From the NCBI GenBank assembly GCA_905618945.1, contig CAJQTF010000010.1, positions 1-64,000 of the forward strand: 64,000 nucleotides of DNA. The letters are read 5' to 3'. Positions within the stretch are counted from its first letter, which is position 1. Every line of letters begins with the position of its first letter. Below, piece after piece: positions 16,982 to 63,992 of this stretch. The stretch comes from an uncultured Methylophilaceae bacterium. Lineage in GTDB: Bacteria > Pseudomonadota > Gammaproteobacteria > Burkholderiales > Methylophilaceae. The notes under the pieces were generated by a model. It did not search any database. It was not told the origin of the DNA and saw only the letters and a list, made by a program, of their open reading frames with translations. A program made the translations under genes and the position numbers.

Positions 16982-17506
16982 TTGCTATTGAAAGACATTG
17001 AGAATATTTTTTTAATTGGCTTAATGGGGTCTGGAAAGACAACAGTTGGCAGAATATTGTCACAAACACTTAATAAAGATTTTTATGATAGTGACCACGT
17101 TGTTGAAGAAAAGACCGGCGTAAAGGTCCCTTTAATATTCGAATATGAGGGGGAGGTAGGCTTTAGAAAAAGAGAAGAGAGTGTGCTGAAAGGTTTGGTA
17201 TGCCATAAGAACATTGTATTAGCTACTGGAGGGGGCATTATTTTATCTAAAAATAATTGTAAATTACTTGCAGATAATGGACATGTTTTTTATTTAAAAT
17301 CAAACTGTGAGGATTTAGCAGCTAGAATGGCAGGCGACCAATCTAGACCTTTGTTGCAAGAGGGCGACTTAAAAGAAACTTTAGAAAGCTTATTTGAGTT
17401 GAGAGACCCAATGTACTCATCTATTTCTGATCATATAATTGAAACTACAGGCAAACGGGCAAAAGAAATTTCTCATGAAATCGAATCTTTTATCAAAAAA
17501 TTATGA
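16982..17506 (+). CDS. aroK: shikimate kinase (start codon uncertain, TTG)
   Basis: P-loop IFLIGLMGSGKTTVGR, LATGGGIIL, adjacent aroB. Confidence 0.94.
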   Translation: MLLKDIENIFLIGLMGSGKTTVGRILSQTLNKDFYDSDHVVEEKTGVKVPLIFEYEGEVGFRKREESVLKGLVCHKNIVLATGGGIILSKNNCKLLADNGHVFYLKSNCEDLAARMAGDQSRPLLQEGDLKETLESLFELRDPMYSSISDHIIETTGKRAKEISHEIESFIKKL

Positions 17507-37137: not shown

Positions 37138-37866
37138 ATGGCAGGTCATTCAAAATGGGCAAATATTCAACATCGAAAAGGCAGGCAGGATGCTAAGAGA
37201 GGAAAAATTTTCACGAAATTAGTTAAAGAAATTACAGTGGCTGCGAGACTGGGCGGAGGAGATGTAAATTTTAATCCAAGATTAAGAACTGCAGTTACCA
37301 CTGCTAAAGAAGGAAGCATGCCAGCTGAAAATATTACTAGAGCAATAAAGCGAGGAACCGGTGAGTTAGAAGGTGTCAATTATGAAGAAATTCGATATGA
37401 AGGTTATGGGGTTAATGGCGCCGCAATTATTATTGATTGCCTGACTGATAACAAGCAACGCGCAGTAGCAGATGTTAGGCTAGCTTTGAGTAAAAATGGG
37501 GGTAACTTAGGCACGGATGGCTGTGTTTCATATTTATTTAAACATTGTGGGAATATTTTTTTTGCCCCAGGGGCCAATGCAAATGAATTAGCAGAAATCG
37601 CAATTGATCTAGGTGCCGAAGATATTATTAATAACGATGACGGTAGCGTTGAAATAATTACACCTCCAAATGAATTTTTAAATATCAAAGAAGGATTCGA
37701 TAAAGCAAACCTTAAATATGAATTTGCTGAATTAACAATGAAAGCTGAAACTGAAAATGAATTAAAGGGACTTGATGGAGAGAAGATGAGGAAAATTCTA
37801 GATTTTCTTGAGGATCTAGATGATGTTCAAGAAGTTTATACAAACGTTGTAATAGAGGACGATTAA
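37138..37866 (+). CDS. yebC: YebC/PmpR family transcriptional/translation regulator (start refined to [15 protein letters not shown])
   Basis: [23 protein letters not shown] signature. Confidence 0.95.
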
Positions 37867-38399
37867 TTAAAATTACTAATAAAATTCTTGGGATTGATCC
37901 GGGATTGAGAGTCACAGGATACGGCGTAATATATAATTCATCTGGCAATATTCGCTACGAAGCAAGTGGCGTAATTAAGACAACCAATCAAGATACAAAT
38001 TTGGCTTCACGCATTAAAATAATTCTTTTAGGGCTCGAAGAAGTAATTGACCAATTCAAACCAGACTGTGTAGCAATTGAGAAAGTTTTTGTAAACACAA
38101 ATCCACAATCTACATTATTGTTGGGGCAAGCAAGGGGGGCGGCAATTAGCGCAGCAGTTATGCAGAACCTCGATGTTTTTGAATACACTGCATTGCAAGT
38201 TAAAAAATCAGTTGTAGGTAAGGGGCATGCAAGTAAATCCCAAGTCCAGATAATGGTTCAAAAATTACTTAAGCTTCCATCAATTCCAAGCCCAGACTCA
38301 GCAGATGCTTTAGCTTGTGGTATTTGTCATGCTAATATTAGTGGAAGTCTCGCTAAATTTGGAACCGGTAATCGAATGAAATCTGGAAGAATAATATGA
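37866..38399 (+). CDS. ruvC: crossover junction endodeoxyribonuclease RuvC, apparent ATT start codon
   Basis: ILGIDPGLRVTGYGVI, DCVAIEKVFV, HASKSQVQ, DSADALACGICH; N-terminal ILGIDPG catalytic segment lies upstream of the first ATG/GTG/TTG; AGAGG 7 nt before ATT at 37866. Confidence 0.9.
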   Translation: MKITNKILGIDPGLRVTGYGVIYNSSGNIRYEASGVIKTTNQDTNLASRIKIILLGLEEVIDQFKPDCVAIEKVFVNTNPQSTLLLGQARGAAISAAVMQNLDVFEYTALQVKKSVVGKGHASKSQVQIMVQKLLKLPSIPSPDSADALACGICHANISGSLAKFGTGNRMKSGRII

Positions 38400-56842: not shown

Positions 56843-58423
56843 TTATTTGAAATCTTTTAATCTATAAATTGTGCCCGCTTTCCAGCCGTAATTAATTTTT
56901 AAATTTAATGGAAGAATTCCAACTTTGTTATAAAGATTTGTTTTCTCAATAATATCTGGAAGTGCTTTTTGGCCTGGAGTCATATAAAAAGTACTTAAAT
57001 GTGTAGTTACAATTATAGTAGGGCGATAGTATTTTATATCCTTTATAATTTTATCTTCATCCTTATCATATTTTATATAAAGGTTTGCCAAATTATGTAT
57101 TGCGTATGATGGGGGAAGTAATCCGGTCAGTGGGAATAATGGGTCCATATAGCCACTTATAGCCAAAGTTGAATCTTCACGGCTGAGCTCGTAAACCTTC
57201 CTCGCCGCGATTAAATATTGACTTTTTTCAATTGTCTCCTTAATTCGAAATACTTCAACAAATCTGATCCAGTTAACTACATCTGATGGAGAGTATATTT
57301 TAGAGCTTTTTATAATAGTTTTATTTATAGTTGGTAAAATCACAATCAGACTCATTAAGCTAATAATTATTATCGCTGATTTTTTTATTTTTTTAGATTC
57401 TTGAATGTTTAGATGTCTCCAACCCATTGCAGTCAGTCCAGCCAATCCAGGGAGGCAGCTAGCAAAATGATATAAAAATGGAAGTTTTAATATAGGCTCT
57501 AAAAGTGGTATCAACACAATTGCTAGCCAAAATAAAAGACGACTCATATTGATTGCTTTTTCATCTGCACTATATAATTTAATAAGATAAATAAGTGAAA
57601 GAGAGGAAGTGACTAAAATAACCCAATTATTTTTGATTGATAATAAACCAAAAGTATTAAAGTTTGTTTTACTAATTTGTTCGAAAAGCACAATGAAATC
57701 AGCAGCAGACATATATCCGCTAATAAAATTGGATAAGTCCCATCCTCGTAGCATGAACACAACACTAAGCACACTAAATCCTATTACTGCAGAGCCGATT
57801 AAGTATTTAACAAGTGCGCGCCATCCATAACCAATAAGTATTGAAATACCTGCTAATAGAAAGAAAGGTAGGAATGGCTCTCTTAATAGAATGCCGATAG
57901 AAATAAGCCCACCAATTAAATAAAACGAGAAACTATCTTTTTTGGTAGTATTTTGCCAGATAAGTAATGCTGTGAATAAAGGAAGGTATGCAACCCAAAT
58001 ACTATTTTTAAATCCATATGCAATAACTCCACTATCATTCATAAGCACTAGCAGAGCCGCCATTAAAATTACTGTGAAAAGTGTGCTACCACTTTCTTTT
58101 AAAATTACTTTAAATAAAATAATAGAGGTCACTAATGCAATAAGCCCATCAATAACTCTTAACATTATGAATTGATTCACTTCGAGACCAAATACCCAAG
58201 AAGTCATAAATGGATACAAATCTAATTTACTTAAAAGAAGTTTATTTTCAAGACCTGAAAATATAGCCTCCCAATAACGTTGGCTATGAAATGTATTAGT
58301 ACCATCATCACTATTAGGTAGGCCCGCAAAAAGTTGTAACCTTAAAAATCCAGTAGTTAATATGGTAATAGAAAAAGCAAGAAAAAATTGAAGCGCTTTA
58401 GGTTTCATTAAAGTATTTAACAT
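56843..58423 (-). CDS. polytopic membrane protein, GT-C-like (paralog A)
   Basis: 526 aa, multiple hydrophobic segments; extensive similarity to the neighbouring 526-aa ORF; C-terminus AGTIYRLKDFK. Confidence 0.6.
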   Translation of the reverse strand: MLNTLMKPKALQFFLAFSITILTTGFLRLQLFAGLPNSDDGTNTFHSQRYWEAIFSGLENKLLLSKLDLYPFMTSWVFGLEVNQFIMLRVIDGLIALVTSIILFKVILKESGSTLFTVILMAALLVLMNDSGVIAYGFKNSIWVAYLPLFTALLIWQNTTKKDSFSFYLIGGLISIGILLREPFLPFFLLAGISILIGYGWRALVKYLIGSAVIGFSVLSVVFMLRGWDLSNFISGYMSAADFIVLFEQISKTNFNTFGLLSIKNNWVILVTSSLSLIYLIKLYSADEKAINMSRLLFWLAIVLIPLLEPILKLPFLYHFASCLPGLAGLTAMGWRHLNIQESKKIKKSAIIIISLMSLIVILPTINKTIIKSSKIYSPSDVVNWIRFVEVFRIKETIEKSQYLIAARKVYELSREDSTLAISGYMDPLFPLTGLLPPSYAIHNLANLYIKYDKDEDKIIKDIKYYRPTIIVTTHLSTFYMTPGQKALPDIIEKTNLYNKVGILPLNLKINYGWKAGTIYRLKDFK

Positions 58424-58606: not shown

Positions 58607-58647
58607 TTTCAAATAAATTTCTAAAATATTGAAAAATTTATTTGAAA
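58607..58647. repeat. 14-bp perfect inverted repeat at the 3' end of paralog B
   Basis: TTTCAAATAAATTT (58607-58620) and AAATTTATTTGAAA (58634-58647), overlapping the stop codon of the - strand gene. Confidence 0.8.
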
Positions 58648-60218
58648 TCTTTTAATCTATAAATAGATCCGGACAACCAACCTTTATCAACTTTTAAATC
58701 TTTTGGTATTTCCCCAACTTTATTATAAAGATTCGTTTTTTCGATCATACTTGAAAAGTCTGCAGCACCATCCATTTCTGATGGCGGAGAAAGTAGCATT
58801 AAAGTCGGACGATATTCTTTTATTATTTTTATCATTTTATCTTCATTATAAGAAAGACTTATAAATAAAGTTCTTAAATTAGAGAATTTATAAGTCGGCG
58901 GTAGCAATTCTGTAAGCGGGAACACGGGTTGCCAAAAACCACTGACAGCTAAAGTTGAGTCATCTCTTGAAAGTTCATAAATTTTAGCCGCTGCGATTAA
59001 ATATTGACTTCTTTCAATTGTTTGTGGGCCTCGAAATAAGCCAACTTTGCCAAAACTTCTAATTGCATCTGATGGATAGAATATTACGTCATTCTTTATA
59101 ATGGTGCGATTTACTGTTGACCCAAATACAATGAGACTCATTAGACCGATGACTATCATCGATGATACAGCTACTTGTTTAGATTCATTACTATTGACAT
59201 ACCTCCAAGCTATGGCACTTAATCCTGCTAAGCCTGGTAGACAGCTAGCTAAATGATATGGCATTCCCTGTTTTAGAAACCATTCTAAAAAAGGCAGTAA
59301 TGCGATTGCCAGCCATAAGTAAAAGCGATTCATGTGCACTGATTTTTTATCAGAAAAATATAGTTTAACAAGATAAATAATTGAGGCTATGGCGGTGATA
59401 CAAATAAACCAACTAGTTTTTATTGTTTCCCCTGCCCACTTAAGAGTCAATTTTTTAGTTGCCTCAATGTCCCAAATCCACCAAGAAACACCAGCATTCA
59501 GGCCTCCTTGAAAATATGAATTAATGAGCTCAAGTAAGTCCCACCCTCTGAAGCTAAGCATAACTGCGAGGACACTAAAGCCTAGTATTGCCGAGCCAAT
59601 TAAATATTTAAGAAGCACGCGCCAGCCATAACCAATCAATATTGCAACCCCTGCTAACAAAAAGAAAAGTAGGAATGGCTCTCGTAATAAAATACCTATA
59701 GAGACCAGGGCCCCAACGATATAGAAAGAAAACGTGTCCGCTTTAGAAGAATTTTGCCAAACTAGGAGTGAGGTAAATAAAGGAAGATATGCAGCCCAAA
59801 TACTATTACTGTATCCAAAGAATATAATCTCAATATCATTCATTGCGATCAATAGAGGAACTACTAAAATTACTGTGAAAAGTATACTGCCACTTTCTTT
59901 TAGAATCACTTTAAAAAATATAATAGATGCAGTGACTGCCACCAAGCCATCAATTAATCTTAGTGCTATATATTGATTCACATCCAGACCATAAATCCAG
60001 GAAGTCATTGTTTGATATAAATGGAGAGACACACCTCTTAAATCTTCACCATTAATTAAAGCAAAATAAATAATTTGATTTAAAAGAGCATAATAACCAC
60101 CATCATAATCAGGTAAGCCTAAAAGTAATTGTAGCCTTAAAAACCCAGTAGTCAGAATAGCTACACTGATCGCAATAAAGAAATGAAATGCTTTAGAAGT
60201 AATTATATTATTATTCAT
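58638..60218 (-). CDS. polytopic membrane protein, GT-C-like (paralog B)
   Basis: 526 aa; shared blocks ILTTGFLRLQL, FKVILKESGS, SIGILLREPFL, KYLIGSA, YRLKDFK with the preceding paralog; first loop GLPDYDGGYYA. Confidence 0.6.
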   Translation of the reverse strand: MNNNIITSKAFHFFIAISVAILTTGFLRLQLLLGLPDYDGGYYALLNQIIYFALINGEDLRGVSLHLYQTMTSWIYGLDVNQYIALRLIDGLVAVTASIIFFKVILKESGSILFTVILVVPLLIAMNDIEIIFFGYSNSIWAAYLPLFTSLLVWQNSSKADTFSFYIVGALVSIGILLREPFLLFFLLAGVAILIGYGWRVLLKYLIGSAILGFSVLAVMLSFRGWDLLELINSYFQGGLNAGVSWWIWDIEATKKLTLKWAGETIKTSWFICITAIASIIYLVKLYFSDKKSVHMNRFYLWLAIALLPFLEWFLKQGMPYHLASCLPGLAGLSAIAWRYVNSNESKQVAVSSMIVIGLMSLIVFGSTVNRTIIKNDVIFYPSDAIRSFGKVGLFRGPQTIERSQYLIAAAKIYELSRDDSTLAVSGFWQPVFPLTELLPPTYKFSNLRTLFISLSYNEDKMIKIIKEYRPTLMLLSPPSEMDGAADFSSMIEKTNLYNKVGEIPKDLKVDKGWLSGSIYRLKDFK

Positions 60219-60359
60219 AATAGAAGTTATTTTAATACAATTAAAATTAAGTTGTATAGTTAAACTTGAATAGTTTTTTGTAAATACAGTTAATATTGTT
60301 TATATTATAAAAAACTGAAATTATCTAATATTAAATATTTTTAGAGCTGAGGAAGAAAC

Positions 60360-61124
60360 ATTAAAAAAATAATTAAATCTGCTAAAAAAAGATTACTTAA
60401 AATGCACTTTGACGCTGGAGTTGGTCATATTGGTGGGAATTTATCATGTATTGATATATTAATTGTGCTGTTTCATAAGCTCATATCTTCCAATGATAAA
60501 TTTATTCTTTCTAAAGGGCATTCTGCAGGGGCATTGTATATAGCTCTTTGGTCGATTAATATTTTAAAAGACTCAGATTTAGCCACCTTTCATCAAGATG
60601 ACACTTTATTAGCAGGCCATCCTTTGCCAAATAAAATTAAAAATATTTCATTTGCAACTGGCAGTTTGGGCCATGGCTTATCATTATCTGCCGGTATAGC
60701 ACTTTCTAAAAAAATTAAATCTATTAAAGGACAAGTTTTTTGTTTAACTTCTGATGGAGAGTGGCAAGAGGGATCTACGTGGGAAGCTCTTATTTTTTCA
60801 TGCCATCATAATTTAGATAATCTGACTATAATAGTTGACCACAATAATCTTCAAGGGTTTGGGAGCACAAATGATATTGCTTCAATGTCCCCGCTAAATA
60901 AAATTATCAATGGGTTTAATTTAGAGGTTATAACTATTAATGGACACTCCCCTGAAGAGATGTTGTCAGCATTAAAGAAAAAACAAAATAAATGTAGGAT
61001 GATAATTTTGGAGACAAAAAAAGGTAATGGCGTAAGTTTTATGGAGAATAAAATGGAATGGCATTATTTACCACTAAATAAAGACCAATACAATCAAGCA
61101 ATCCAAGAGGTTGATAGAGTATGA
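60360..61124 (+). CDS. transketolase N-terminal subunit, apparent ATT start codon
   Basis: MHFDAGVGHIGGNLS, SKGHSAGALYIALW, TGSLGHGLSLSAGIA, TSDGEWQEGSTWEAL (ThDP motif region); homologous N-terminal helix KKIIKSAKKRLLK upstream of the first ATG. Confidence 0.85.
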   Translation: MKKIIKSAKKRLLKMHFDAGVGHIGGNLSCIDILIVLFHKLISSNDKFILSKGHSAGALYIALWSINILKDSDLATFHQDDTLLAGHPLPNKIKNISFATGSLGHGLSLSAGIALSKKIKSIKGQVFCLTSDGEWQEGSTWEALIFSCHHNLDNLTIIVDHNNLQGFGSTNDIASMSPLNKIINGFNLEVITINGHSPEEMLSALKKKQNKCRMIILETKKGNGVSFMENKMEWHYLPLNKDQYNQAIQEVDRV

Positions 61125-62023
61125 GAACACAACTCTCTGATGGCCTTATTAAGCTAGCAAACCAGAACAACGAAATGATTTTTCTCACTGGTGATCTTGG
61201 TTTTATGGCTCTTGAAAAATTACGAGATAAATTAAAAGAAAAATTTATAAATGTTGGAATTGCCGAACAAAATATGATTGGAGTCGCAGCTGGAATGGCA
61301 AGTGAAGGACTTATTCCATGGGTATATAGTATTGCTCCATTTTGTTACGCAAGACCATTTGAACAAATTCGAAACGATGTTTCTTTTCATAATCTGCCCG
61401 TTAAATTAATAGGTAATGGAGGAGGTTATGGATATGGTGTAATGGGAGCAACACATCATGCGATTGAGGATTATGGAATTTTACTAACACTAACTAACTT
61501 TAGAGTTTTTATTCCATGCTTTAATGAGGATATTTATCCGGTATTAAAATTATCAAATTCTAATGAAAAACCAACGTACATAAGACTTGGCTATGATGAG
61601 TCTGATCAGGAGTATGTCCCACCAAAATACGAAAGCTGGAGGCAACTTACTCGTGGCGACGGCCCAGTAATTATTGTTACAGGACCTATAGCAACGACTT
61701 ATATTAAAGCTTTTGAAAAATTAGAAAAAAAGAAAAGGCCAAATTTATGGATTTTATGTGAGCTACCAATACTCGAAGAATCATTACCAAAAAATTTAAT
61801 TGAGCAAATAAATTTAACTAAAAATCTATTTGTTATTGAGGAGCATGTTGCTCAAGGTGGAATAGGATCACAGATCTCGTTAGTTTTAATTAAAAATAAT
61901 ATTAGTGTTAAAAGATTCACTCATTTATTTGCTACTTCGCATCATTTTGAAAAAAGCGGATCACAAAAATATCTTAGAAAAAAATGTGGCATCGATTTAA
62001 ATAATGTACTATCAAGACTATAA
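61121..62023 (+). CDS. transketolase C-terminal subunit
   Basis: TGDLGFMALEKL, FINVGIAEQNMIGVAAGMA, pyrimidine-binding domain motifs; 4-bp overlap with N-subunit. Confidence 0.88.
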   Translation: MRTQLSDGLIKLANQNNEMIFLTGDLGFMALEKLRDKLKEKFINVGIAEQNMIGVAAGMASEGLIPWVYSIAPFCYARPFEQIRNDVSFHNLPVKLIGNGGGYGYGVMGATHHAIEDYGILLTLTNFRVFIPCFNEDIYPVLKLSNSNEKPTYIRLGYDESDQEYVPPKYESWRQLTRGDGPVIIVTGPIATTYIKAFEKLEKKKRPNLWILCELPILEESLPKNLIEQINLTKNLFVIEEHVAQGGIGSQISLVLIKNNISVKRFTHLFATSHHFEKSGSQKYLRKKCGIDLNNVLSRL

Positions 62024-62051: not shown

Positions 62052-63992
62052 ATGAACATTGATAAGCACATACTATCTCTTGAGGGACCAATTTTAGTTT
62101 TAGGAGCTTCTGGCTTCATTGGAGCAAATCTTTTTAAAATGCTTCTATCAAAAAGAGAAGATGTTTATGGGGTGTGCAGACTTGAGAAAGGATGGAGGTT
62201 AGAAGGCGTTGACAGTAAAAATATAATCTTTACTGATGTAAATGATTCAGTAGCACTAAAAAATCTTATTAATACAATTACCCCAAGAACTGTTTTTGAT
62301 TTTATATCTTATGGCGCATATTCTTTCGAAGAAAGCCATGAAATTGTTTACCAAACAAATTTTTTATCTTTAACTAACATTGTCACTTTGCTTGAAGAAA
62401 AAGGAGTATCAGCATATATACACGCGGGTACATCTTCCGAATATGGTTTAAATTCAAAACAACCCAAAGAAGATTCAAGCCTAGAACCAAACAGCCATTA
62501 TTCATCCTCTAAAATTGCAGCATCATATTTTTTAAAATATGTGGGGAAAACCCGGAATTTTCCAGCCATTAACCTCAGATTATATTCAGTTTATGGCCCG
62601 CTTGAGGATTCATCAAGATTAATTCCAAACATATTAAATAATGCAAAAGTAAAAAAATTTCCTCCATTAGTGGACCCAGATATTTCAAGAGATTTTATTT
62701 TTATTGACGATGCATGCGAAGCATTTATTTTAGCAGCAAGTAAAATTCATCCCGAATTATATGGGGAAAGTTTTAATATTGGAACAGGTAGTAAAACAAC
62801 AATTAAAGATTTAGCATTAATAGTAAAGAAAATTTATAAAATTAAAGAAAAGCCAATTTTCAGCAATATGAGTAAAAGAAGTTGGGATCTAACTGAATGG
62901 TATTCAGATTCAAAAAAAGCAGAGAAGATTTTTGGCTGGAAATCTAAAACTAATTTAGTTGATGGTTTAAATTTAACATTTAATTGGCTAAGTACATTAA
63001 CAAAAAAAGATTATATTTCTATAACCAAACAAAATAGCTCGAATAAAAAGAGAAGTATTTCTGCAATTATTGCATGCTATAAAGATGAGATGGCAATTCC
63101 AATTATGTACCAAAGACTAACTAAAACATTTAAAGAAATAAAGATAGATTATGAGATCATTTTTGTTTGTGATGGAAGTCCACATAACGATATAGATGTA
63201 ATTAAGAAAATATCAAAAAATGACACACGAGTGATTGGGGTTAATCATTCAAGGAATTTTGGCTCACAAATGGCTTTTAGGAGCGGAATGGAGTTATCAA
63301 CTAAGCAAGCTGTTGTTTTATTAGATGGCGATTTACAAGACCCTCCAGAATTAATTAAAGACTTCGTTAAAAAATGGCTAGAAGGGAATGATGTTGTATA
63401 CGGCACTAGAGTAAAAAGAGAAATGCCTTTTTATTGGGGGTTCTTGTATAAAGCCTTTTACAGAATTTTGTCATCATTAAGTTTTATTAAAATTCCACTT
63501 GATGCAGGTGATTTTTCCTTACTTGATAAAAGAGTCGTTAGTTGGATTCTAAAGTGTCCAGAACGTGATTTGTTTATGAGGGGAATTAGAGCTTTTGTTG
63601 GATTTAACCAGGTAGGCGTAGATTATATTAGACCAGCTCGAGCGTTTGGAAACTCAACTAATAGTTTATTTAAAAATATAGGCTGGGCAAAAATGGGTAT
63701 TTTGTCATTTACAAATGCCCCGTTAAATTTAATGACGATTATGGGGTTTGCTACATTAATTCTTTCTATTATTTTAATTTTATTATTTACTTCATTAAAA
63801 ATATTTTTCCCAGATATTGCACCAAAAGGAGCAACAACAATTATGCTTTTGGTTCTTTCTTTTGGATCAATTAATCTTTTTGCTATTTCATTGGTCGGGG
63901 AATACATTGGAAAAATAATTTTAGAAGTTAAACAAAGACCTAGAGTAATACGCTCAGAAATTATTAGGAGTGGCGTTACAACAGAGTTGTAA
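62052..63992 (+). CDS. NAD-dependent epimerase/dehydratase fused to GT2 (GtrB/DPM1-like) glycosyltransferase with C-terminal TM helices
   Basis: N-half: VLGASGFIGANLF, SSEYG, YSSSK (YxxxK); C-half: SAIIACYKDE, VLLDGDLQDPPELI, two hydrophobic C-terminal segments. Confidence 0.85.
   Translation: MNIDKHILSLEGPILVLGASGFIGANLFKMLLSKREDVYGVCRLEKGWRLEGVDSKNIIFTDVNDSVALKNLINTITPRTVFDFISYGAYSFEESHEIVYQTNFLSLTNIVTLLEEKGVSAYIHAGTSSEYGLNSKQPKEDSSLEPNSHYSSSKIAASYFLKYVGKTRNFPAINLRLYSVYGPLEDSSRLIPNILNNAKVKKFPPLVDPDISRDFIFIDDACEAFILAASKIHPELYGESFNIGTGSKTTIKDLALIVKKIYKIKEKPIFSNMSKRSWDLTEWYSDSKKAEKIFGWKSKTNLVDGLNLTFNWLSTLTKKDYISITKQNSSNKKRSISAIIACYKDEMAIPIMYQRLTKTFKEIKIDYEIIFVCDGSPHNDIDVIKKISKNDTRVIGVNHSRNFGSQMAFRSGMELSTKQAVVLLDGDLQDPPELIKDFVKKWLEGNDVVYGTRVKREMPFYWGFLYKAFYRILSSLSFIKIPLDAGDFSLLDKRVVSWILKCPERDLFMRGIRAFVGFNQVGVDYIRPARAFGNSTNSLFKNIGWAKMGILSFTNAPLNLMTIMGFATLILSIILILLFTSLKIFFPDIAPKGATTIMLLVLSFGSINLFAISLVGEYIGKIILEVKQRPRVIRSEIIRSGVTTEL

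Follow-up and report, generated by a model that had tools for sequence, protein, structure and literature searches.

An AUU codon as the likely start of a split transketolase N-subunit in a streamlined Methylophilaceae lineage

The window examined here (the whole 64,000-nucleotide stretch of DNA that was analysed) carries a gene for one half of a split transketolase, and the only open reading frame with a standard start at this position (60402-61124, + strand) encodes a protein of 240 aa. Because the reading frame extends upstream of that ATG, we asked where translation of the gene begins. Our reading of the sequence is that it would begin at an AUU codon at 60360, to which we assign a probability of roughly 0.8.

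The host is a small marine Methylophilaceae bacterium, a methylotroph belonging to a streamlined lineage in which near-complete genomes measure 1.2-1.4 Mb. In one genome of the genus the transketolase locus is identical in translation to the one in Methylophilaceae bacterium LSUCC0401 (L004, L080), and the lineage is probably of the OM43 type. The source genome (G000) is a MAG that is 77.6% complete, with 1.5% N.

The transketolase locus and its N-terminal helix

The frame of the gene is closed on its 5' side by an in-frame TGA at 60348..60350. A Shine-Dalgarno-like GAGGA follows at 60349..60353, the proposed initiation codon ATT lies at 60360..60362, and the first standard start codon, ATG, is found at 60402..60404, all on the + strand; the first-pass annotation had placed each of these elements, and the frame, correctly to the base. 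Upstream of ATG 60402 the frame reads (stop)GRN-IKKIIKSAKKRLLK-MHFDAGVGHIGG. It had been claimed that ATT and ATA are the only starts available in this interval, and indeed no ATG, GTG or TTG occurs between the TGA and ATG 60402. A possible promoter upstream is a weak sigma-70-like sequence, TTGTAA-17-TATATT (60278..60306, + strand), identified by consensus match alone at 9/12 positions; its use would imply a 5' leader some 45-50 nt long.

Read from the ATT, the gene (60360..61124, + strand) encodes 254 aa with the TPP-binding domain (PF00456, 1.5e-24). Residues 2-251 align with PDB 6yak, the N-terminal component of a split transketolase (2.9e-47), and by sequence similarity the open reading frame is that of a split transketolase N-subunit. 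The C-subunit, comprising the pyrimidine-binding and C-terminal domains (PF02779, 2.9e-27), is encoded immediately downstream at 61121..62023 (+ strand), its ATG overlapping the N-subunit stop codon (ATGA) at 61121; a C-subunit gene is likewise present at 79/80 homolog loci. The next gene on the same strand (62052..63992) encodes a single 646-aa protein in which an NAD-dependent epimerase/dehydratase is fused to a family 2 glycosyltransferase (PF01370, PF00535), and it is likely an operon partner of the transketolase genes. This setting suggests a role in sugar or cell-surface polysaccharide metabolism. The window gene therefore shares with 6yak its domain, its N-terminal helix and the gene split, but differs in its sugar-epimerase/glycosyltransferase neighbourhood and in its ATT start codon. 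On the other side of the locus are two tandem paralogs of 526 aa each (56843-58423 and 58638-60218, both on the - strand), which share 55% identity, have no Pfam match and, judging from their hydrophobic sequence, are probably membrane proteins.

To evaluate the residues encoded before ATG 60402, conservation was counted over 65 homologs sharing 50% identity or more. The residues on the 5' side of Met15, the residue encoded by that ATG, are well kept: Ala at position 8 in 78%, Arg or Lys at position 9 in 94%, Arg at 11 in 94%, Leu at 12 in 100% and Leu at 13 in 92%. Position 15 is itself Met in 98% (64/65), whereas conservation is poor over residues 1-7. Where the 5' end of a homolog can be read, a standard start occurs no later than position 1, mostly -10 to +1 relative to ATT 60360, and never at the position of ATG 60402; in the three homologs that lack such an upstream start, the sequence runs off a contig or the frame is broken. 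Other transketolase copies in the genus have their ATG before the helix. An AlphaFold2 model (26 sequences, mean pLDDT 90.8) predicts a single helix across residues 2-19, with pLDDT values of 96-97 over residues 1-20. The suggestion that a helix normally precedes the GHIGG motif in split N-subunits is thus borne out by homolog conservation, the 6yak alignment and the predicted structure. It is well supported that ATG 60402 encodes an internal Met, within the helix, and is not the start; initiation there would remove most of helix 2-19. By sequence comparison we regard it as demonstrated that the N-terminus encoded 5' of ATG 60402 is a feature of the protein family and that no standard start serves it.

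Non-standard starts across the genus

The first-pass annotation had mentioned a second ATT candidate in the window that is also followed by AAA. The only matching case that we found is ruvC (37866..38399, + strand; PF02075, 1.8e-52), whose proposed start, ATT 37866-37868, overlaps the stop codon of yebC (TAATT), is followed by AAA, and has a GAGGA (37855..37859, + strand) at the same distance of 6 nt. At the ruvC start position, the 27 genomes of the genus that have ruvC divide into 12 that have ATT without an early in-frame TTG, 14 that have TTG, and 1 in which the gene is broken. In 11 of the 12 ATT genomes, no in-frame ATG, GTG or TTG is present up to and including the catalytic Asp codon of the ILGIDPG motif; in the twelfth (G008), a GTG stands immediately 5' of the ATT. 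GAGG or GGAG is retained in all 12. The start codon itself is ATT in 12/12, yet none of the seven invariant internal Ile columns keeps to one codon. Because the ruvC ATT is kept across species, sequencing error is ruled out for this gene. Gene callers would truncate both proteins, as had been anticipated: the standard transketolase frame starts at 60402, and a RuvC annotation that began at TTG 37905, the first standard codon, would leave out the catalytic Asp.

A genome-wide search for similar cases, which the first-pass annotation had proposed, was carried out by comparing nearly all of G000 (997 kb) with 1.08 Mb of a relative (G014). Among 687 ortholog pairs we looked for conserved N-termini that no standard start could account for, and candidates were then checked across the genus. 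Three further genes, murF, rnpA and yigZ, held up in this comparison. An ATT is found at the start of murF in eight genomes (G000, G017, G028, G009, G018, G023, G021 and G016). In G000, G017, G018 and G021 there is nothing standard upstream and the next standard codon lies 48-161 codons downstream, whereas in G028, G009 and G023 a standard codon does occur upstream in frame, which makes these weaker cases. The rnpA start is ATT in G000, G009 and G017 and ATC in G028; that of yigZ is ATC in G000, G017 and G028 and TTG in several other genomes. In addition, infC begins with ATA at all 26 readable loci of the genus. The genomes with ATT in murF overlap only partly with those with ATT in ruvC, from which it appears that the changes arose more than once. 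In total, at least 4 of the 687 core genes of G000 (0.6%) have a non-standard start in common with other species.

A number of candidates were dismissed. These included rRNA and antisense ORFs, as well as mutY, queC, uvrA and hscB, for which standard starts exist. An RluC-like gene (L218, G000:C23:1-20000, at ~17230-17260) was set aside as a frameshift: it contains 7 A where 6 would keep the frame of the relative, and the extra A is probably an assembly error. Two other genes are recorded as observations: uppS (G000:C29:35483-36217, + strand) appears to begin with CTG, with TTG in G014, and a gene of the RDD family (G000:C1:70347-70730, - strand) has ATA and ATT as its sole start candidates.

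Taken on their sequences, ruvC, murF, rnpA, yigZ and infC appear to keep AUU, AUC or AUA starts at fixed places in this lineage. The proposal that the lineage tolerates AUU initiation is thereby backed by conserved ATT or ATC codons in the first four genes and by ATA in infC.

Which codon starts the transketolase

Because residues 1-7 vary among homologs, homology leaves ATT 60360, ATA 60369 and ATT 60372 open as starts. GAGGA precedes these codons by 6, 15 and 18 nt, respectively, which makes ATT 60360 the likely start; it is favoured over the other two on Shine-Dalgarno spacing alone. In this genome, a Shine-Dalgarno-like motif is found 4-10 nt upstream of 23% of ATG starts and of 3.8% of all ATT triplets. 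Such a motif precedes all five AUU and AUC starts considered here, which is not an independent test because the motif helped to pick some of them.

An error in the sequence or assembly would make this an ordinary gene, in which the real codon is ATG or the start has been damaged in some other way. The locus comes from a single MAG that has at least one apparent homopolymer frameshift elsewhere, showing that base errors do occur in it, and its allele occurs in none of the relatives: the nearest genomes either lack this accessory gene or have one only 58% alike, and the best homolog of the N-subunit in the genus (58%) starts with ATG. Because the allele is found in one MAG alone, conservation cannot confirm the transketolase ATT. 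A homopolymer indel, however, can be rejected as the cause. Upstream of the A7 run, none of the three frames contains an ATG, GTG or TTG before a stop, and therefore a standard start is recovered neither by correcting the annotation nor by a one-base indel; an error would have to have substituted a base of the start codon. AUU and AUC starts are, moreover, common to several species, and hence no errors, in at least 4 of the 687 core genes checked. From this base rate, the Shine-Dalgarno motif and the lack of any other start, we infer that the AUU is far more probably real than a base error, and we consider the error explanation improbable.

About equally improbable, in our estimation, is a non-standard start at ATA 60369 or ATT 60372, which would shorten the protein by 3-4 residues. 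The poor conservation of residues 1-7 would permit it, and the ATA start of infC in the genus shows a precedent for the former codon, but both codons lie beyond normal spacing from the GAGGA, while the 6 nt of ATT 60360 equals the spacing in ruvC. Finally, we find it hardly credible that translation starts at ATG 60402 with the upstream similarity a relic of a longer ancestor, since that codon, although the sole standard start available and one that retains the GHIGG motif, cuts the confidently predicted helix, loses the nearly invariant R11 and L12, has no Shine-Dalgarno-like motif 4-10 nt before it (as the first-pass annotation had seen), and is used by no homolog. The pattern under which ATG 60402 would have been the better start, homologs beginning there without upstream conservation, is the reverse of what we observed.

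Initiation at AUU and its significance

For initiation at AUU 60360, the simplest reading, by analogy with known cases, would be ordinary Shine-Dalgarno-led initiation with a lowered yield. GAGGA would set the initiator fMet-tRNA on the AUU, where it would pair normally with the first two bases and be mismatched at the third, so that the N-subunit would begin fMet-KKIIKSAKKRLLKMHFDAG. With AUU, AUC and AUA the initiator anticodon forms pairs at two positions, and IF3 discriminates according to how strong the third pair is (PMC10158994). Because IF3 disfavours such codons, the yield from AUU 60360 would be expected to fall below that from AUG, and it may depend on the level of IF3. The use of AUU 60360, its reduced yield and any dependence on IF3 are all inferred.

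In the relative G014 we saw nothing to suggest an unusual initiator tRNA as the cause: its initiator tRNA is normal (CAU anticodon, GGG/CCC stem), and no second tRNA of this type was seen; neither the initiator tRNA nor infC was found in the 77.6% complete G000 MAG. The first-pass annotation had pointed to IF3 as a place to look for unusual residues, and this lead did not hold up: IF3 in nine relatives contains nothing clearly unusual, aligning normally, with Tyr75 kept, to E. coli IF3. Some relatives (infC loci L132, L133 and L136) have Phe at the position of E. coli Tyr70, which we do not deem explanatory, and altered IF3 was not retained as the cause. The IF3 of G017 (L133) also has a long C-terminal tail of VEKKDA repeats.

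AUU starts are already known. In E. coli, AUU is the sole start of infC and pcnB, giving a weak yield, and IF3 discriminates against it (PMC9410913). As in those genes, no AUG, GUG or UUG start of the window transketolase fits the full conserved protein, and a correctly spaced Shine-Dalgarno sequence precedes the AUU. In Staphylococcus aureus, cvfC1 has an AUU start and ccpN and infC have AUA starts; ribosome profiling and reporters showed that these starts work, weakly, and they have extended Shine-Dalgarno motifs (PMC13009471). The S. aureus and Methylophilaceae cases are alike in being conserved within a genus, preceded by Shine-Dalgarno motifs and overlooked by annotation; they differ in that the lineages are unrelated, the genes are other ones, and the Methylophilaceae evidence is solely comparative. 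There are two such genes in E. coli, whereas the lineage described here has ruvC, murF, rnpA and yigZ in addition to an accessory metabolic gene, and infC starts with AUU in E. coli and with AUA in this genus. Start-codon surveys depend on annotations in which AUU is seldom called. In one such survey, 1 of 61,358 ancestral AUG starts had turned into AUU (PMC5622118). We found no report in the open-access literature of ruvC, murF or rnpA starting with AUU, or of AUU starts in OM43-type bacteria. What would be new is the occurrence of several conserved AUU and AUC cases in one streamlined lineage.

AUU initiation on bacterial chromosomes has so far been viewed as a curiosity confined to infC and a handful of other genes. 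One possible interpretation, which we advance tentatively and rate at somewhat below even odds, is that start-codon discrimination is relaxed in this lineage, such that AUU, AUC and AUA are ordinary weak starts both in core genes, where species share them (ruvC, murF, rnpA, yigZ and infC), and in accessory genes such as this transketolase. Several questions can now be put to the test: how many genes use AUU or AUC, whether their expression is tied to IF3, and how many N-termini are wrong in streamlined genomes. Standard gene finders shorten proteins with such starts and, if the interpretation is true, about 0.6-1% of the checked genes in the lineage would be mis-annotated.
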